Part shown: positions 5,620 to 14,413 of the stretch, piece by piece | Numbering within the stretch: the first letter of the stretch is position 1 | Layout of the letters: every line of letters starts with the position of its first letter | DNA from: Adhaeribacter swui | Lineage (GTDB): Bacteria; Bacteroidota; Bacteroidia; Cytophagales; Hymenobacteraceae | Assembly: GCF_014217805.1 (NCBI RefSeq) | Contig: NZ_CP055156.1 | Location: 3,912,585 to 3,976,584 of the forward strand | Reading direction: 5' to 3' | DNA length: 64,000 bases | The notes under the pieces: generated by a model | Told to the model about the DNA's origin: nothing | Databases searched by the model: none | Seen by the model: only the letters and a program-made list of their open reading frames with translations | Program-made: the position numbers and the translations under genes

Positions 5620-8442
5620 CTACAAATCGAACTTAAAGCCTAAGTTGTACCGGCCTTGGTAAAATTCTATCTGTTTGGTGCGGGACGGAATGCCCTGATA
5701 GTAACGTAAAGGCTGATTAGTTAAATTATTGGCTTCAACGAACAGGCGCAGCTTTGAAGTAAATTTGTAAGAAGCGTTGGCATCCAGAAATAATTGCTTG
5801 TCGTAAAAACTGTCCTGAAATGAATCCGAGCCCAGTTCGTCGAGGTAATCGGAGGCATAATTCATGGATAAGCGCGCCGAGAATTTACTGTTATCCCAGA
5901 ATAAAGACCCGTTCAGCATGTGCGGGGCCGTACCGGGTAAACTTACGTCGGTTCTTTCTTCACCGTCCTCGTTGGTGACGCCATTCGCTTTAGACTTAGT
6001 ATAGGTGTAATTGGCGTATAAACCAAAGTGTTTTAAAAATCCCGGTAGAAAATCCAGTTGCCGCTGGAAGGCAACTTCAAAGCCGTATACATTTACACTC
6101 CGGCCATTTCTGGCTTGCAGGAAAGTCCAGTTTTCATTAACCGGTACGGGGTTGCTTTGGCCCGGAAAGTCAATGGCAAAATCGGCGGAGGTATACTGGT
6201 TATTGCTGTAATTGTAAATGAAATTGTTTAATTTTTTAAAAAACACGCCACCCGAAACTAAACCCACCGATTTAAAATAATTTTCGGCCATAAAATCGTA
6301 ATTGTAGGCGTAGGTAGCTTTCAGGTTAGGGTTACCGGCGCTAATTTCGGCATCAGAAGCCACATTGTTTACGTAAGGAGCCAGGGCGTAGTAATTGGGG
6401 CGGGCCAATGCCGTAGTAAAGGCCGCCCGTAAAATTAAGTTATCGGAAGCGCTGTATTTAAACGAAAGGTTCGGAAGTACATTGGTGTAAGAATTGGTAT
6501 TGTTCAACTGACCTTCTAGTTCTTCTTCGTCCAGTACCCGGTTGCCCTGATAATCGATGTAAGTGTGTTCTAGGCGGGCACCTACGATCATGGCCAGTTT
6601 ATCGCTTAAGTCCTGATCCCAGCGGATATACCCAGCGTATATGTTTTCCCGGGCCGTGTAGTTTACAGCCAAAAATTCCGATGGGTCTGATTCACTGGTA
6701 AACAAGGCCGGATTGTTCAGGTTAAGGTTGCCCAGGTAATTAGCCGAGGCAAAAACGCCCGGCACGTATTTGCTGCCCGGGTTAAAACCTTCGCCGTTGA
6801 AATTGCTGGTGGTTACATTGTTCAGGGTAACATCATCCAGGGGTTCGTAGGTGAAAAAATTGTTATCGCGCAGTTTATCTTTAATGCGTAATCGTAATCC
6901 GGTTCTTAGGCGGCCTTTTTGAGCAGGAATCATAGAAAGCGGAAAACGGACATTTACTTTTGCGCCAAACTCCGACTCTTCGGTATTGTCGCGATTTTCG
7001 GTTAATTCGGATTGCTCAAACAAGTTCATGCTTTCGCCGGAAGCTGAGATAAATGGCCTTTCGGGGCTATTGCCTGCCTGCGAAAAAGTAACATCTTCCT
7101 GCTGAAATTCAATGTAGCGTTCGTTAGGTCTAAACTCCCGCGCTTTAGCGTAATTCACCGACCAGTCCAAGTCCAGTTTTGGGGTTAACAGGTGCTCGCC
7201 CCGCAAACTGTAGTTTAGTACTCGTTGGTCTTCCAAGCGCCGGCTTTGGTTACGGTTGTTGTTTATTCCGCCTTTGGTTTCCCGGGTTATGCGACCAGTA
7301 AAACCCGTAATAATTTCGCCGTTATACTCCGGTTCAATGTCGTCGTAAGTAGTCCGGAAGCGATTTTCCCGGTCGTCCCGCCAGGTATAAATAGCATTGG
7401 CGTACAAAGTATGATTGCCGTTAAACTTGTAATCCAAAGCCACTGAACCACTTCTTCGGATGCGTTGTACATCGTACTTCCGGATTTCAGCTTCTTCTAC
7501 GTATACATTGTTAAAATCGTCTTGTACCCATACGGCTTCCACGTTATCCGAACCGTAATCATTATTGTTGTAAGAAGCACTAAGTACCACGCCCAACTTA
7601 TTGTTATTATACCGATTTCCGTATATCAATCCACCGGTATAAATGGCTTTTTCCCGGATGGGGCCGTAACCGCCGGCCAGGGTAGCCGAAATCCGCTCGC
7701 CGTTGGGCGAAGCCCGGGTAATCAGGTTTACCGAACCGCCAATAGCATCGGCATCCATATCCGGCGTAAGGGTTTTATTTACCTCAATGGTAGAGATCAT
7801 GTCAGACGGAATAAGATCCATCTGCACGTTCCGGTTATCGCCTTCCGCCGAAGGAATACGGTCGCCGTTTAAGGTTACCGAATTTAAAGCCGGCGCCAGA
7901 CCCCGGATGATGATGTTACGGGCTTCACCCTGGTCGTTTTGCATGGTAATGCCGGGCACCCGTTTTAAAGCATCGCCAATATTGGCGTCCGGAAACCGGC
8001 CCACCTGATCCGAAGAAATAACGTTGGTAATATTTTGATTGTTCTTTTGCTGATTTAAAGCCCGGGCCTGGCCTTTTAACCGATCCCCCACAATTACCAT
8101 TTCCTGGAGCATGCCGGTATTGGTACTCATATTAAAATTTACCACGGTATTTTTTCCGGCTTCTACCGTAACCTGTTGCACTTGGCGTTGGTACCCCAGA
8201 TAAGATATTTCCACCTCATAGCTGCCAACCGGAATATTTAAAAATTCATAATCGCCAGTTTGGTTAGAAATGGTATAGCGGTTGCCGTTGCTAAACTTAA
8301 CGGTGGCGCCGGGCAGCGAAAAGTTGTTTTCGGCATCGGTTACCTTCCCCGATACAACCCCATTTTGCGCGAAACAGAAGGCAGGTATCATCCATGCCAC
8401 AACAAAGAGTAAATTTTTAAGCATAACGTGCGTAGTGAACAA
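5620..8442 (-). CDS. TonB-dependent receptor with carboxypeptidase-regulatory domain
   Basis: A 940-residue outer-membrane receptor. It has a signal peptide ending near AFCFAQ (about residue 26; an alternative ATG lies at 8424). A CarboxypepD_reg-like domain covers about 28-110 (VSGKVTDAENNFSLPGATV), and a plug domain about 130-240 (SSDQVGRFPDANIGDALKRV, NIIIRGLAPALNSVTLNGDR). The barrel runs to the C-terminus. The plug signature (VGRFPDANIGDALKRVPGI) is typical of large single-component receptors that lack a SusD partner, and no SusD gene is present here. The next gene is a beta-propeller phytase, so uptake of phytate or inositol phosphates is a reasonable inference, not shown by the sequence. 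Confidence 0.92.
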   Translation of the reverse strand: MFTTHVMLKNLLFVVAWMIPAFCFAQNGVVSGKVTDAENNFSLPGATVKFSNGNRYTISNQTGDYEFLNIPVGSYEVEISYLGYQRQVQQVTVEAGKNTVVNFNMSTNTGMLQEMVIVGDRLKGQARALNQQKNNQNITNVISSDQVGRFPDANIGDALKRVPGITMQNDQGEARNIIIRGLAPALNSVTLNGDRIPSAEGDNRNVQMDLIPSDMISTIEVNKTLTPDMDADAIGGSVNLITRASPNGERISATLAGGYGPIREKAIYTGGLIYGNRYNNNKLGVVLSASYNNNDYGSDNVEAVWVQDDFNNVYVEEAEIRKYDVQRIRRSGSVALDYKFNGNHTLYANAIYTWRDDRENRFRTTYDDIEPEYNGEIITGFTGRITRETKGGINNNRNQSRRLEDQRVLNYSLRGEHLLTPKLDLDWSVNYAKAREFRPNERYIEFQQEDVTFSQAGNSPERPFISASGESMNLFEQSELTENRDNTEESEFGAKVNVRFPLSMIPAQKGRLRTGLRLRIKDKLRDNNFFTYEPLDDVTLNNVTTSNFNGEGFNPGSKYVPGVFASANYLGNLNLNNPALFTSESDPSEFLAVNYTARENIYAGYIRWDQDLSDKLAMIVGARLEHTYIDYQGNRVLDEEELEGQLNNTNSYTNVLPNLSFKYSASDNLILRAAFTTALARPNYYALAPYVNNVASDAEISAGNPNLKATYAYNYDFMAENYFKSVGLVSGGVFFKKLNNFIYNYSNNQYTSADFAIDFPGQSNPVPVNENWTFLQARNGRSVNVYGFEVAFQRQLDFLPGFLKHFGLYANYTYTKSKANGVTNEDGEERTDVSLPGTAPHMLNGSLFWDNSKFSARLSMNYASDYLDELGSDSFQDSFYDKQLFLDANASYKFTSKLRLFVEANNLTNQPLRYYQGIPSRTKQIEFYQGRYNLGFKFDL

Positions 8443-8625
8443 GCCGCAAAATTAAGCGCGGCGGTTCCGAGTTAGCTTTTTAGGTGATTAACAAAATGTT
8501 AAATAAAAAAGCCAAATGTTATGCTAATGTTATTTGCAGCAGGTGGAAGTAAACTAGTTTGGTTTAAGTTATAATTTTTTTCTGTAATATAAATTTAAGT
8601 AAGCGCCCCAGCCGGATACATGCCA

Positions 8626-10155
8626 TTACCAGTTGTCCATGGTACCCGCCGACCAGTATAGTAAAGCAATGGATTTAACGTACTTGGTTTTTAATTCCCA
8701 TAATTTTACATTCTGGTTAATTAAGTTCATTTCCCGGGTATTTACTAAAAACAAAGAGCTTTCGCCGTTTTCGAACCGGGTTTGTTCGCCCCGGCGCAGG
8801 ATATCGGCTTGCGATACCAGGGTTTCCTGAGTATTTATCTGGGCCGCTAACATCTGCAATTCGTTGTAGGTAGTTTGCAAGGCAGTGGTTATATCGCGTT
8901 GGGTTTGAGTTAGCGCCAAATCAGTTTCAGTTAACTTATACCGGGTAAGCTGCCATTTGCCGCGTTCGCTCCGGAGCAGTAAAGGGTAACTAAAGCTCAC
9001 TCCTAATTTGTAATTATTTAAAAAATAAGTAGAGTTCAGCCGCTCCACGGGTAAACCAAAGTCCTGACGCAGAAAATTATATTCTAGGTTGAGTTTTGGT
9101 TTAAATTTATCGGCGGCTAACCGGCGCTCAATTTCGAGTTGTTTGTATTTAAAATCCAGTTTCCGTAATTCCGGATGGTTCTCCTGGGCAAACCGGAAAA
9201 GTTGCTGTAGCGTATCCGCGGGGATCAGGTTTAAATCGCTTTCATTAAATGCTGGTACAGCTGATGAAACTAGTTCCACGGGATTTTGATCGGAGGTCCA
9301 GAGGTAGTTCGAAACTACCAGGCGGCTATTCTGGAATTCGGTTAAGGATTGCTGCAACAATTGCTGGCGGTTAATTAAATCGACCCGGGCTTCCACAGTA
9401 TCAATGGCGGCTAAATCGCCGTACCGGGCCCGCTCGGATACCCCGCGGTAGCGTACTTCCGATAAGTTGTAGGCAGTTTGGTATAGCTGCCACCGTTGGT
9501 ATGCCAACACCCAATCCCAGTAATCCTTAGAAGCTTCCAGCAGTAACTTGTTAATAATTTTAATTTTATCGGCTTCGGCGGCATTAATTAACAACTGCGC
9601 CTGCCGCAAGGTGGCCCGCCGTTGATCGATGAGCCATCCTTGGCCGATGGGTAAGGAAATACCCGCGTAAGTTAAACCCGCGGCGGGCGTTTTTACTTCC
9701 GGGTTAACGTTTACGCCTTTGTTACGCTCGTATCCGGCTTTTAAATCGGCACCAAACCACAAGGGTACTTTTACCATGCTATTCCAGTTCTCGTAGTATA
9801 ACTGGTCTTTAAAATCTTTGCGGTCGTAGTAACTGATGGCCTGCGGATCGAAATAACCGCGGGCGATGCGGAGTTCCTGCTGCGCCTGTTTCGGTAACAA
9901 AGCAGCCTGGCGTACCACCGGGTGATTGGCTTTAATTTGGTCGTAAAAAGCCGCAAAGGTTACTACTTTTATAGAATCATTTAAAATTTCGGCTTGGCTG
10001 CGGATGGAAATACCGGTAATTAGCAGCTCTAGAAGCAACAGTAATTTATATTGAGTAATTCTGGCAAGGAAGGCACGTAGGGGTTGACCGGAGTTTACCC
10101 GTGAAAAAACCAATAGCGCCGGTTTGATGATAAAGTTATTCAGCACTGGTTTCAT
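8626..10155 (-). CDS. TolC family outer membrane efflux protein
   Basis: A 509-residue TolC-like outer-membrane channel. The N-terminus has a long basic leader before the hydrophobic segment (KLLLLLELLITGISI). The body shows the two repeated helical hairpins of the family (for example RQAQLLINAAEADKIKIINK and ALTQTQRDITTALQTTYNEL) and ends with the second coiled coil before a short tail. The start overlaps the end of the HlyD gene by 20 bp, so it is translated with the ABC-HlyD export genes. It should be the exit duct of that machine. Confidence 0.85.
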   Translation of the reverse strand: MKPVLNNFIIKPALLVFSRVNSGQPLRAFLARITQYKLLLLLELLITGISIRSQAEILNDSIKVVTFAAFYDQIKANHPVVRQAALLPKQAQQELRIARGYFDPQAISYYDRKDFKDQLYYENWNSMVKVPLWFGADLKAGYERNKGVNVNPEVKTPAAGLTYAGISLPIGQGWLIDQRRATLRQAQLLINAAEADKIKIINKLLLEASKDYWDWVLAYQRWQLYQTAYNLSEVRYRGVSERARYGDLAAIDTVEARVDLINRQQLLQQSLTEFQNSRLVVSNYLWTSDQNPVELVSSAVPAFNESDLNLIPADTLQQLFRFAQENHPELRKLDFKYKQLEIERRLAADKFKPKLNLEYNFLRQDFGLPVERLNSTYFLNNYKLGVSFSYPLLLRSERGKWQLTRYKLTETDLALTQTQRDITTALQTTYNELQMLAAQINTQETLVSQADILRRGEQTRFENGESSLFLVNTREMNLINQNVKLWELKTKYVKSIALLYWSAGTMDNW

Positions 10156-11527
10156 CGGTTAAAGCATTAGATTCTTTTTTGTCTTTCGGGGCGTAAGTAG
10201 CCCCAGTTTCCTGGGTTGGATAATCGGCCGGGAAGCCATTTAACTGCCGCCACAGCTCGTACCAAATAGGCACGTCGTTTAATAAAGCCCAGCCATAAAC
10301 GCCGGACCCAATGCGCAGGGCTTCCGGCCAGGGCTCAGTTTGTGGGTCTGGCACTACCAGAATGCGGTATTTACCCATGGTAGCTACGTTATCAATTACG
10401 GCAATGCGGCCGCCAAAGGTACCAAAACCCGTATTGGGCCAACCCGAAAATACCAGGGCCGGCCAGCCATCAAATTGCAAACGAATGTGTTGTCCTTTGC
10501 GGATCAATGGAAAATCCATGGGCTTTACGAAGAGCTCCACGGCTAATTGCGCTTCGCGTGGTAAAATGGTGGCTACCGCTTCTCCTTCTTTTACAGTTTC
10601 GCCGATACCGGCTTTCATGGCTTTTACCACGATGCCATTTTGTGGGGCCGTTATGTGGTAAAAGCCCGCCCGGATTTTAGTATTGGCGTATTCGTTTTTC
10701 ATTTTGGCCAGTTCGCCGTTGGTGGTATAGGCGTAGCCGCGGGTAGCACTTAATTCGGATTCAGCTTTGGCAGTTTTTTCGCCGTACTCGGCCGTTAAAG
10801 AATTTAGTTCAATGCGGGCATTTTGCAACTCGTTGTGGGTGCTAGCCACTTTGTTTTCGTAGCCCTGCAATTTTGCCCGCACTTCCTGAAATTTCAATCG
10901 GCGGGTTTCCAGTTCGGTCAAAGATTTAAGACCTTGCTGATACAATGCTTCCTGGCGTTCCAGTTGCACCTGGGCAATTTTGTAATCGGTTTGGGCAGCT
11001 ACTAATTCGGCGCTGTCGCTTTGCAATTTAAATTTTACCTGATCTATTTTGTTTCGCGCTTTATTTAAGCTAAAAGTTAAACCTCCTCTTAAATTGGCAA
11101 TCTGATCTTCCAGGGCTTTGGCTTTTTGTTGCGTGGCAACTAAACTCATTCTTTTTGCTTCGATTTGTTCATTTAAACGTTGCAACAACTGCGGATCGAA
11201 GTACTTATCTTTTACCTCCGAGATGCTGATCAGGGTATCGCCTTTTTGCACGGTTTGTCCTTCTTGCACGTGCCATTTTTCAATCCGGCCAGAAATAACA
11301 CTTTGCAGCGTTTGAGGCCGGCCAGCAGGGTTTAACGCCGTGAGGGTACCATTGGAGCGGATATTCTGCGTCCAGGGGAGAAACAAGGCTAAGCAAAGAA
11401 CCAAAAAAATGCCTCCGCACCAAAGCGCCAGGGTACGCCCGGTGGGAGCCGTTTTTAATAAATCGGCGGTACTGTAATGCGGTTGGGCTTGTGCGGGGTA
11501 TTCTTTATTTTTAACAGCGGGTGCCAT
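10136..11527 (-). CDS. HlyD family periplasmic adaptor (membrane fusion protein)
   Basis: A 463-residue adaptor. It has a cytoplasmic N-terminus of about 32 residues, one membrane helix (about 33-52, WCGGIFLVLCLALFLPW) and a first lipoyl half (SGRIEKWHVQEGQTVQKGDT). Long coiled-coil arms (about 120-280) lead to the second lipoyl half (ITAPQNGIVVKAMKAGIGET) and a C-terminal beta domain. Such proteins link an inner-membrane transporter to TolC. It begins 2 bp after the ABC gene ends and its 3' end overlaps the TolC gene, so the three are one operon. The C-terminus is rather acidic and polar (KDKKESNALTDETSAE). Confidence 0.9.
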   Translation of the reverse strand: MAPAVKNKEYPAQAQPHYSTADLLKTAPTGRTLALWCGGIFLVLCLALFLPWTQNIRSNGTLTALNPAGRPQTLQSVISGRIEKWHVQEGQTVQKGDTLISISEVKDKYFDPQLLQRLNEQIEAKRMSLVATQQKAKALEDQIANLRGGLTFSLNKARNKIDQVKFKLQSDSAELVAAQTDYKIAQVQLERQEALYQQGLKSLTELETRRLKFQEVRAKLQGYENKVASTHNELQNARIELNSLTAEYGEKTAKAESELSATRGYAYTTNGELAKMKNEYANTKIRAGFYHITAPQNGIVVKAMKAGIGETVKEGEAVATILPREAQLAVELFVKPMDFPLIRKGQHIRLQFDGWPALVFSGWPNTGFGTFGGRIAVIDNVATMGKYRILVVPDPQTEPWPEALRIGSGVYGWALLNDVPIWYELWRQLNGFPADYPTQETGATYAPKDKKESNALTDETSAE

Positions 11528-11529
11528 GA

Positions 11530-13716
11530 TTATACAGTGGTTTCGGTTAACACGGTTAAAGGTAAATGCGGTTGAATAGCGGTGTAAGTACCCTGGTGGG
11601 TAATGGTGCCTTCTTGCATCAACATCACGCGGTCGCAGAACTGCATAATTTTTTTGTCGTGCGATATAATTATTAAAGTGCAGTTTAGGCGTTGGTGCAA
11701 GGCTTGCAGAATAGGCAGTTTCTCGGCCCGGTTAATGGCTAATAAGTTATTATCCAGTACAACCAGTTTGGGTTTGCGCACCAGGCAACGGGCCAGCATA
11801 ATTTTAGAAACCACGCTACGGGGTAATTGCCAGTCGGTGCCGGTTAAAACGGTGTGTAAGCCTTTGGGTAGGTTTTGCACGTATGCCGAGAGCTGACAAA
11901 TTTCTAATGCTTCGAGCACCTCCTGGGTGGTAATGTTGCTTTCGCCGCAGGTAATGTTTTGCAGCAGGGTACCTTCAAAAATTTGGTCGGTGGCAATAAT
12001 GGCGGCCATCTGGCTCCGCAAATTCACCACATCTAAATCGCGGAGCGATAAGTTATTGTAAGCCAGCCGCCCTTCGTAGCCCGGGGTTAATCCTAGTAAT
12101 ATTTGCGATAAAGTAAATTTACCGGCATCGCTGATGCCCGTTAAGGCCACTTTCTCCGAAGCGTTTATTTTTAAATTAATGTCGTGTAATTTTATCTGCG
12201 CTTCTGAAGGACTGTGGTAAGCCAGATGGGCGGCTTGTACGCTTATGCCTGGTCCGGATTCTGTTTCGGTAATTTTTAATCCCCGGGCTTCTTCTAAAGG
12301 TAAATCCGTTACCGCGGTAATCTTTTTTAAGCCGGTTAAAACATCGTACACCACATCTAATTTTAAAATTATTTTTTCTACCGAGTTCATGGTTAAGATG
12401 ATGATGATTTCGGAGGCCACAAATTGCCCAATGTTGATTTGGCGCTGTAAAACCAGGTAACAGCCCAATATGAGTAAGCCGGCGGTAATGAGCGATTTAA
12501 AAAAGATAAAGCCCCAGTACTGGGTCATGAGCACGCTAAAATGCTGCCGACGAGCTAATATGTACTGGCTGGTAATGTAATCGGTTTGTTGCATGCCCAG
12601 ATTAGAGTAGCTGGCCATTTTAAACGTATAGATCGCCCGGGCCATACTCTCCAGCCAACTTACCAACTGGTATTTGTATTTGGATTCAACTAAACTGGTT
12701 TGCACGCCTTTATTACCCGTAGCATAGATAATAAGACTAAGCGTAGCCGCCAGAAATATACCGAAAAAGATAAACGAAGAATGGTACAAAGACAGCAATA
12801 TTAAACCAAAAAGGATTTGCAGTAAGGCCGCATTAAATTCGAGTAGAATTTTGGCAATGCCTTTTTGCAAAGTCAAGGTTTCGAAAAAGCGGTTCATGAG
12901 CTCTACCGGCTGCTCCGACTGTAAACTTTCGAGTTGTAAGCGGGGAATACGGTGAGCAAAATCAAAGGACATGCGGCTGAACAAACGTTGCTGTAAATGC
13001 TCCACCAAATAAACCTGCATAATTTGTAGCCCACCCACCGCAAAGATGCCCACTACAATAAAGCCAATGAGTACCACAATAGAGGTAGACATTTGCCCCC
13101 CTGAAACAAACCCGATAATGCTTTGAATACCCAAAGGCAAAGAAAGACTGATAATACCCGCAATAGCAGCGTAGATATAGATATAACCGATCTGGCTTTT
13201 TTCAACGGCTAAAAACTTAAATAACCGCCCTAAGTGCGAGGGTTTTTTAGCTTGGTCCGCATCGGTAAAGCCGGGCGGTTGGTGCACCAAACTGGTTAGT
13301 AAGTACGTTTGACCTTCCGGGCGATTTGGAATTTGATAGCAGCTTTGGCTTATTTCTTCTACGGAATGAAAGGTTAATTTTTCGGGCTTGGCTTGCCTAA
13401 ACCGATAAACGTGATAGTGGTTATGCTGTCGCTGAATTACTACCGGTACTACCTGGTTATCTATTACCTGGCACAAAACTACGGGTGATTTGCTGTGTTC
13501 CAGAATAGTAGGCAATTCGGCTGTAGTTGGTTCCGATAAAACGTATATTAGCTTTTCTTTAATGGCCGTTTCTTGTAAGTAAGCCAAAAACGAAGGCACG
13601 CTGGCTGGTTTATCAACCGGCAGCGTTAAAGGTTCTTTGGCCGGGGTAGGAGCCGCCGAAAGCCCTTGCAATTGGCTTACAATTTTATTTATCGCTGGTA
13701 AAAGGGTTAAATCCAT
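11530..13716 (-). CDS. Type I secretion-like ABC transporter with degenerate nucleotide-binding domain
   Basis: A 728-residue membrane-plus-ATPase fusion if begun at the ATG at 13716 (an upstream ATG at 13755 would overlap the TetR gene). Residues to about 165 form a soluble N-terminal part resembling the pseudo-peptidase region of HlyB-like exporters. Six membrane helices follow (about 175-460), then the nucleotide-binding domain (about 490-728). Key ATPase motifs are altered. Walker A reads GISDAGKFT (Phe where Ser/Thr should follow Lys). The Q-loop reads IIATDQIF with no Gln in place. The signature LSGGQ is replaced by LPRSV. Walker B ends LVVLDNN (Asn for catalytic Glu). The switch His is kept (IIISHDKK). 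The frame is unbroken, so this is divergence and not a sequencing slip. Confidence 0.85.
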   Translation of the reverse strand: MDLTLLPAINKIVSQLQGLSAAPTPAKEPLTLPVDKPASVPSFLAYLQETAIKEKLIYVLSEPTTAELPTILEHSKSPVVLCQVIDNQVVPVVIQRQHNHYHVYRFRQAKPEKLTFHSVEEISQSCYQIPNRPEGQTYLLTSLVHQPPGFTDADQAKKPSHLGRLFKFLAVEKSQIGYIYIYAAIAGIISLSLPLGIQSIIGFVSGGQMSTSIVVLIGFIVVGIFAVGGLQIMQVYLVEHLQQRLFSRMSFDFAHRIPRLQLESLQSEQPVELMNRFFETLTLQKGIAKILLEFNAALLQILFGLILLSLYHSSFIFFGIFLAATLSLIIYATGNKGVQTSLVESKYKYQLVSWLESMARAIYTFKMASYSNLGMQQTDYITSQYILARRQHFSVLMTQYWGFIFFKSLITAGLLILGCYLVLQRQINIGQFVASEIIIILTMNSVEKIILKLDVVYDVLTGLKKITAVTDLPLEEARGLKITETESGPGISVQAAHLAYHSPSEAQIKLHDINLKINASEKVALTGISDAGKFTLSQILLGLTPGYEGRLAYNNLSLRDLDVVNLRSQMAAIIATDQIFEGTLLQNITCGESNITTQEVLEALEICQLSAYVQNLPKGLHTVLTGTDWQLPRSVVSKIMLARCLVRKPKLVVLDNNLLAINRAEKLPILQALHQRLNCTLIIISHDKKIMQFCDRVMLMQEGTITHQGTYTAIQPHLPLTVLTETTV

Positions 13717-13726
13717 TGTCTGAACT

Positions 13727-14413
13727 TTAAATTTTGTAGGCGGCAATGGCCGCAAAAACCAGATGTTTTAAAAAATCAGCTACTTTAACTGTTACATTTT
13801 CTCCGGACTTAATATCCGTTAGGGCAGGCAGATGCTGCACAAAGTACGTTTGTTGGTGAGTAGCTTCCATTATTGTGCTAATAAGCGTATGCGGATACGG
13901 GTAGTCCGGGGCAATCTCCAGAAGAACCGTAGCAATTTTTCTGCATAGTGTTTTATACTCCTGAAAAAACTGCGCTTTGTTATCCTCATCCACTCCTTTG
14001 GTTAAATAAGCTTTGGCCGCATCGGCAATAACAATCCGGTGCAAGGCAGCTTCATCAATGTAAGTAGTCTGCAAATTATCCAAAGAGGCCTCGGTTAGTA
14101 TACGAATGATAATGCCAAGTCGCTGTGCCGGATCCAAAATGTTATTCGTCTGAAAGCTTATTTGATAATCGAGCCACACCCAATAATACGATACGAGGTA
14201 AATCAACAGTTTGTGTTTATTCTCAAAATACCGGTACACCGACGCTTCGGTAGAGTTAATTTCCTGCGCTAACTTTTTAAAGGTAAATTCTTCAAAACCT
14301 AAATAGTCGATCAGACGAATGCTTTCGGCTATTATCTTCTTTCCCAGCGCGGTTTCTTCGGGGTTCCGGAGGTAGGATTTATGGTTTAAATTAATTTTCA
14401 ATACGGTGTTCAC
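13727..14413 (-). CDS. TetR/AcrR family transcriptional regulator
   Basis: A 228-residue regulator with an N-terminal TetR DNA-binding domain (about 20-70): KLAQEINSTEASVYRYFENKHKLL is cut here as FTFKKLAQEINSTEASVYRY. The remaining helical part would bind the ligand. It is the first gene of the ABC-HlyD-TolC operon, ending 10 bp before the ABC start, so it probably represses its own transcription and that of the exporter. Two palindromes in the AT-rich spacer upstream (14469-14508) are candidate operators. The ligand is unknown. Confidence 0.9.
   Translation of the reverse strand: MNTVLKINLNHKSYLRNPEETALGKKIIAESIRLIDYLGFEEFTFKKLAQEINSTEASVYRYFENKHKLLIYLVSYYWVWLDYQISFQTNNILDPAQRLGIIIRILTEASLDNLQTTYIDEAALHRIVIADAAKAYLTKGVDEDNKAQFFQEYKTLCRKIATVLLEIAPDYPYPHTLISTIMEATHQQTYFVQHLPALTDIKSGENVTVKVADFLKHLVFAAIAAYKI

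Follow-up and report, generated by a model that had tools for sequence, protein, structure and literature searches.

The ABC protein encoded at positions 11,530 to 13,716 of the window, i.e., the 64,000-nucleotide stretch of Adhaeribacter swui DNA analysed here, is probably the inner-membrane component of an HlyD/TolC tripartite exporter that is driven without ATP hydrolysis, possibly by a proton gradient. ATP hydrolysis is the defining feature of type I secretion and of ABC export. Judged by sequence, the nucleotide-binding domain (NBD) is catalytically stripped in grades across the family of this protein, with purifying selection persisting in the close pairs examined, and one clade is without an NBD while the set of transmembrane domain (TMD), HlyD and TolC persists. 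Since the ATP sites would be incomplete in a homodimer as well as in a canonical pairing, and since the TMD-only form is kept together with HlyD and TolC, transport without hydrolysis is the best reading.

The exporter gene of the window and its operon

The gene is an uninterrupted open reading frame (ORF) of 728 aa on the minus strand (11530-13716) with its ATG at 13716, and it is part of a tight TetR-ABC-HlyD-TolC operon. The initial annotation had reported an intact frame and tightly coupled partners, and both hold: the HlyD, TolC and TetR partners were identified by Pfam, and the genes are separated by 2 nt, a 20 nt overlap and 10 nt, respectively. The features of the locus are as follows.

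8626..10155, minus strand: TolC-type outer membrane factor, overlapping HlyD by 20 nt
10136..11527, minus strand: HlyD-type periplasmic adaptor, starting 2 nt past the ABC stop
11530..13716, minus strand: type IV ABC exporter, ATPase-dead by its motifs, 728 aa, with a probable C39-like domain, TMD and degenerate NBD (ORF, Pfam, predicted fold)
13727..14413, minus strand: TetR-type regulator, separated from the downstream ABC start by 10 nt
13285..13599, minus strand: N-terminal domain, residues 40-144, probably C39-like, with no Cys in the first helix (the domain's Cys residues are confined to 82 and 126; predicted secondary structure, PCAT1/HlyB alignments)
12307..13236, minus strand: elbow helix and six-helix TMD, residues 161-470 (Pfam, model, Foldseek; omega 0.02)
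13000..13002, minus strand: Glu239 at the cytoplasmic end of TM2, invariant within the class set
12589..12630, minus strand: coupling helix 2, residues 363-376, NBD-docking element, less conserved in the NBD-less clade
12409..12411, minus strand: Glu436 in TM6, Glu/Asp in the family and acidic in 0/22 comparators
12373..12378, minus strand: Glu447-Lys448 in TM6 (Glu in 107 and Lys in 107 of 109)
11569..12249, minus strand: degenerate NBD, residues 490-716 (Pfam, motif alignment; omega 0.05)
12112..12138, minus strand: Walker A GISDAGKFT, residues 527-535, with Phe replacing Ser/Thr (motif alignment)
11977..12006, minus strand: Q-loop region AAIIATDQIF, Gln gone at the aligned position (motif alignment)
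11812..11826, minus strand: signature LPRSV (631-635) instead of LSGGQ (motif alignment)
11749..11766, minus strand: Walker B LVVLDN, with Asn656 where the catalytic Glu is expected (motif alignment)
11659..11661, minus strand: switch His686, kept in the window protein (Asn in 70/142 relatives, His in 11)

In the window protein, ABC_membrane (PF00664) and ABC_tran were each detected by Pfam above the gathering cut-off. The AlphaFold2 model (mean pLDDT 82.1) places an N-terminal alpha/beta domain first, followed by the elbow with the six-helix TMD and then the NBD. Foldseek matched the fold to PCAT1, HlyB and ComA, pointing to the type IV exporter TMD fold, and the matches to PCAT1 and HlyB extended over 683-724 columns with large rmsd values, which are probably due to differing domain positions. 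Because alignments of that length must include the N-terminal domain, this domain is probably C39-like. The best NCBIfam score was 161.9 bits for NHLM_micro_ABC2 (TIGR03797), below the cut-off of 709.4; TIGR01846, TIGR03375 and TIGR01842 gave 127-158 bits against cut-offs of 510-726, and the protein was far under the cut-offs of all of the 25 best models listed. The exporter thus has the frame of type I secretion, yet it falls outside that family both by the ATPase that defines it and by the NCBIfam cut-offs. Note that a TonB-dependent receptor-like ORF (5620-8442 of the window), recognised by eye, is located on the same strand about 180 nt past TolC; the congener stretch L070 has no similarly large ORF after TolC.

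The motif readings of the initial annotation were compared with the alignments. Walker A reads GISDAGKFT with no Ser/Thr after the Lys, the aligned Gln position of the Q-loop (575) is Ala within IIATDQIF with one Gln three residues further, LPRSV is found at 631-635 in place of the LSGGQ signature, and Walker B ends Asp-Asn (VVLDNN) with Asn656 at the position of the catalytic Glu, all as originally read. The statement that only the switch His remains was right as to His686 but too narrow, as Walker A Lys533 and Walker B Asp655 are also kept. The motif positions agree with the predicted secondary structure, and misread or shifted motifs were ruled out by the agreement of Pfam, the 157-row family alignment, the alignment with 22 comparators and the predicted fold.

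It had been proposed to look for the same losses in neighbouring genomes, with intact motifs in close relatives counting against the reading. Both close congeners, G003 (95% identical) and G005 (83% identical), share the losses. Omega values, calculated by the Nei-Gojobori method for the window gene against its counterpart in the 95%-identical G003, were 0.02 (TMD), 0.05 (NBD) and 0.15 (N-terminal part), indicating that the NBD is under constraint without its catalytic residues; the selection on the NBD that had been suggested as a check is therefore seen. Local decay was ruled out by the shared losses in congeners together with the low omega. In another congener, G006 (L071:7477-11481), an insert with IS4/5-type and other DDE transposase genes splits the exporter gene, which therefore seems dispensable there; Walker A is gone too from the remaining piece.

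Grades of motif loss across the family

Homologues were found at E<=1e-40 in 45/59 genomes, and TMD homologues at E<=1e-25 in 163/296 genomes of the window's class, taken to be Bacteroidia, with the own genome counted in both cases. For the class search, the motif state was read in 90 fetched stretches, the window's own among them. The family alignment consisted of 157 rows, i.e., the window plus 156, near-duplicates included, and 13 of these rows had no NBD, including L120, where the contig ends. After a duplicate of the window (L001) and the disrupted L071 were dropped, 142 NBD-bearing proteins were left. Among them, the canonical residue was kept in 131 at the Walker A Lys, 118 at the next Ser/Thr, 63 at the Walker B Asp, 28 at the catalytic Glu, 15 at the first and 15 at the second signature Gly, 11 at the switch His and 6 at the Q-loop Gln. 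No family protein kept more than 5 of the 8 determinants, and neither an S-G-G signature nor a complete set of Walker A, Walker B with Glu, His and Gln was present in any of the 142. Walker A K-S/T occurred together with Walker B D-E in 17/142 proteins, two of which kept the His too and none the Q-loop Gln. Glu and His were both kept in three proteins (L058, L138 and L149), with damaged signatures. The P-loop was intact in 110/142 and not in the remaining 32. In L155, L163, L165 and L179 the P-loop is destroyed too and an NBD-length tail is left, a further grade of decay.

We also aligned 22 intact exporters with 120 family rows. The intact exporters were canonical in 20-22/22 at the K, S/T, Q, S, second G, D, E and H positions, so the comparator alignment is regarded as sound; the first signature Gly was canonical in 12/22. 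Mean pairwise identity in the family was 0.50 for the TMD versus 0.31 for the NBD, and the NBD was the more similar domain in 11/5886 pairs. In the comparators the means were 0.24 (TMD) and 0.44 (NBD), and the NBD was the more similar domain in 226/231 pairs. The usual conservation of TMD and NBD is inverted in this family.

When the phylum was searched with an NBD-less protein, matches were obtained in 39/148 genomes, 15 of them outside the class, and 14 of these were fetched. Two of the fetched loci (L220 and L221) fall among class members, and the other 12 (L208-L219) form a separate clade (SH-aLRT 99) with HlyD downstream in 12/12. In this clade the Walker A Lys and Walker B Asp were kept in 12/12 each, the catalytic Glu in 11, the His in 10, the second signature Gly in 10, the first signature Gly in 1 and the aligned Q-loop Gln in 0, and by these motifs its members are candidates for residual ATPase activity. 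Taken at the level of motifs, the pattern suggests stepwise loss in the exporter family, in which the Q-loop and signature were likely lost before the Glu and His, followed by the P-loop in some members and the whole NBD in one clade. This order rests on the separateness of the out-of-class clade (SH-aLRT 99) and on motif state, with no firm root, the root via intact exporters being weak (long branches).

The NBD-less clade, its operon and the TMD

The association with HlyD was examined in 152 loci showing at least 700 nt past the exporter, and HlyD was located downstream on the same strand within 500 nt in 148 of them; the four misses (L086, L038, L039 and L101) had no recognisable HlyD directly downstream. 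TolC follows in 98/101 loci. A TetR gene recognisable by the window TetR was upstream on the same strand in 67/149 loci and on the other strand in 10; because 69 loci gave no match, it is not a constant part of the operon. Neither an adjacent intact exporter that could serve as a partner half-transporter (in the ORF tables) nor a conserved cargo gene beside the exporter (by eye in the ORF lists) was found in 20 neighbourhoods. Note that after the family member of L038 (5902-8070) the next long same-strand ORF has 458 aa and no match to the window HlyD; the family member of L086 is located at 8228-10117.

The NBD-less state was found in 12 loci (L064, L075-L080 and L121-L125) belonging to the families f1, f11, f17 and f58 and a Cytophagaceae MAG, where the TMD protein has 333-369 aa; Pfam detected ABC_membrane alone in the three such proteins analysed. 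In a tree built on TMD columns, 11 of the 12 loci formed a single clade (SH-aLRT 100) beside L089 with one state change. Repeated independent NBD loss, which the scattered families had brought into consideration, was ruled out since the tree gives a single event. If the most upstream possible HlyD start is taken, the NBD-less exporter gene and HlyD overlap by 8 nt in 11/12 loci, and the twelfth has a 34-nt gap; in 3 of the 11 overlapping loci the nearest HlyD ATG is 31-103 nt past the exporter stop, so with either start there is no room for an NBD between the two genes. An HMM of intact NBDs, which did detect the degenerate NBD in three control loci, found no NBD ORF near the 12 NBD-less genes within the fetched stretches (9-18 kb each). 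Among the pairs listed, the five closest gave omega values of 0.10, 0.10, 0.15, 0.17 and 0.27 for the NBD-less TMD. Genera g4 and g5 were represented by 14 genomes, of which 13 had one match each (5 NBD-less, 8 full-length) and one had none; none of the 14 had both forms together, as if one form replaces the other. NBD-less members have Lys/Arg at 397 in 12/12 versus 20/142 NBD-bearing proteins, and an acid at 242 in 9/12 versus 10/142, which may represent one event, given the single clade.

Within the TMD, the identity of coupling helix 2 (363-376) was 0.21 in NBD-less members versus 0.40 in the rest of the family, a value that depends on the alignment as this helix has small indels. All other TMD regions were at least as conserved in the NBD-less clade as among the remaining family members, bearing in mind that the clade is narrower and so generally more alike. 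According to the available part of PMC8277102, coupling helix 2 touches only the opposite NBD. Coupling helix 1 (ELxNRFF) is largely kept in NBD-less members, so that some cytoplasmic partner could dock there.

Charged residues of the TMD were counted in 109 NBD-bearing proteins, 11 NBD-less proteins and the 22 comparators. Glu239 was present in 109/109 and 11/11, with Glu in 1/22 comparators. Position 436 was acidic in 109/109 (Glu in 105, Asp in 4) and Glu in 11/11, versus acidic in 0/22; Glu447 occurred in 107/109, with 10 Glu and 1 Asp in NBD-less proteins, and Lys448 in 107/109 and 11/11, each versus 0/22. Lys285 and Lys348 were found in 109/109 and 11/11, His312 in 101/109 and 11/11, and Lys/Arg407 in 106/109 and 11/11, each in at most 1/22 comparators, plus one Arg at position 285. 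Lys465 was dropped as a family-specific charge because Arg is there in 18/22 comparators. Judged from the helix boundaries of the model, Glu436 and Lys407 are expected within the membrane, with Glu447/Lys448 nearer to its inner side and Glu239 at the inner interface. The out-of-class clade L208-L219 has TMD charges much like those of the family, with Asp for Glu239 in 9/12 and Glu436 in 12/12. Relatives that keep Walker A/B and His already carry these charges, so the charges did not evolve as a substitute for ATP. The acidic residues are older than the loss of ATPase residues, which fits a dual-energy-coupled ancestor; they could also have a structural or substrate-binding role.

Energy source, rival explanations and known systems

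In a cycle consistent with these features, the TMD homodimer would alternate access alone and hand its substrate to HlyD-TolC. Energy might come, less certainly, from an ion (proton) gradient via Glu436, Glu447/Lys448, Lys407 of TM5 and Glu239 of TM2, and an NBD, where kept, would not be a motor but would clamp coupling helix 2, either structurally or as a nucleotide sensor. Precedent points to proton coupling as the most likely energy source. In the available parts of the sources, drug export by an engineered NBD-less MsbA is driven by the proton gradient (PMC4979069), and NBD-less LmrA shows apparent proton symport that needs Glu314 of TM6 (PMC6155054). The LmrA currents triggered by ATP are absent with the NBD-less form, as described in the same part of PMC6155054, so the TMD by itself does not account for every activity. 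The intact P-loop of 110/142 proteins and the omega of 0.05 in the window NBD likewise mean that nucleotide binding may still matter.

Another possibility is that the NBD binds ATP without hydrolysing it and thereby gates or regulates a passive conduit in a CFTR-like manner. This would agree with the intact P-loops (110/142), an Arg after the signature helix in 141/142 and the constrained NBD (omega 0.05); however, 32/142 proteins have no intact P-loop and the operon is kept in 12 loci with no NBD, and we consider it unlikely. The exporter might also pair with an ATPase encoded elsewhere, either a canonical half-transporter in a heterodimer or a stand-alone NBD on the TMD. Other ABC exporters of the genome do have intact motifs, exporters with a degenerate site are well documented (PMC7756269, available part), and coupling helix 1 is conserved even without an NBD. 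On the other hand, degenerate-site heterodimers retain one complete composite site, whereas here, as S-G-G and the full Walker/His/Gln set are each found in 0/142, neither composite site formed with a partner would be complete. In addition, no NBD ORF was found within the stretches fetched for the 12 NBD-less loci, and coupling helix 2, the contact to the opposite NBD in the available text of PMC8277102, is decayed in that clade, leaving the pairing quite unlikely. Among the three options offered by the initial annotation, work without ATP hydrolysis is therefore well supported by the family-wide losses and the NBD-less clade, pairing with a canonical ATPase is disfavoured, and the remaining NBD may have a regulatory role, given the intact P-loop in 110/142.

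That the ABC protein has lost transport and is a scaffold or sensor for HlyD-TolC would be in line with the lack of any conserved cargo gene noticed by eye in the ORF lists of 20 neighbourhoods, but constraint is strongest in the TMD (omega 0.02) and the exporter fold is kept, making this very unlikely. Pseudogene decay once the need was lost has a negligible chance: a split gene is seen in L071 (G006) and an in-frame stop in L162, but the other 141/142 NBD-bearing proteins have no internal stop, omega is 0.02-0.15 by domain in the window pair, and HlyD is kept in 148/152 loci. For the family as a whole, such decay is refuted by omega, HlyD retention and stop-free frames.

We return to transport without hydrolysis, which was compared with known systems. 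The window family shares domain order, type IV fold and HlyD and TolC partners with the type I exporters HlyB, PCAT1 and ComA, but differs from them in that catalytic motifs are lost or the NBD is absent, and in scoring below the NCBIfam cut-offs. With the heterodimers TAP, TmrAB and TM287/288 it shares degenerate NBD residues; these, as is generally known, have one competent site and a partner, neither of which was found in the window family. Engineered NBD-less MsbA and LmrA provide proton-coupled drug transport by a TMD alone, as far as the available text of their descriptions goes, but were made in the laboratory, whereas the present clade is natural.

SbmA is described in the available part of PMC13316013 as proton-driven and with a glutamate ladder, as thought to derive from an ABC TMD, and as lacking NBD and coupling helices. 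On that basis, SbmA/BacA (SLiPT) and the window family have in common an ABC-exporter TMD, a shed NBD, decayed NBD docking and conserved glutamates; but SbmA imports, and it is described with TM0 helices and with neither an elbow helix nor HlyD/TolC partners (PMC13316013, same part). The window family, unlike SbmA/BacA, keeps the elbow and coupling helix 1, has HlyD/TolC partners and survives in graded intermediates; SbmA/BacA has no NBD, whereas the window protein has one and the NBD-less state is confined to 12 loci. Of the two coupling helices, helix 2 is decayed and helix 1 kept in the NBD-less clade. No match was obtained to SbmA_BacA, which we take to be the Pfam name for the SbmA/BacA family, for the window protein (E up to 0.1), where ABC_membrane and ABC_tran were the only matches, or for three NBD-less proteins (E up to 1). 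SbmA was absent among the 50 structure matches listed per search with an NBD-less model as query, which excludes nothing. The window family resembles SbmA in logic, not in membership.

More tentatively, and with somewhat less than even confidence, an ATP-driven type I secretion exporter may have become, stepwise, a proton-driven secondary transporter with an HlyD/TolC conduit. This would be a natural, phylum-wide conversion from ABC to secondary transport, the second besides SbmA and independent of it, and directed towards export. Its intermediates would be living at three grades, namely members that mostly keep Walker/His, members without the catalytic residues and members without the NBD. 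Among the matches listed, which comprised open-licence papers only, there was no prior description of this exporter family. If the family indeed has no working ATPase, a trans-envelope HlyD/TolC conduit can run on non-ATP energy, and the family occurs in roughly half of the genomes sampled from the class (163/296); graded intermediates between ABC exporter and secondary transporter would be available, and the contribution of the NBD would be testable in natural proteins. Family genes match ABC-transporter domains and may be counted as ATP-dependent in genome surveys. Note that a family member was also seen in a Gemmatimonadetes MAG (L046), and another in a MAG labelled Streptomyces griseus (L050), with motifs nearly the same as those of the Bacteroidetes members; the L050 bin is probably mislabelled or contaminated.
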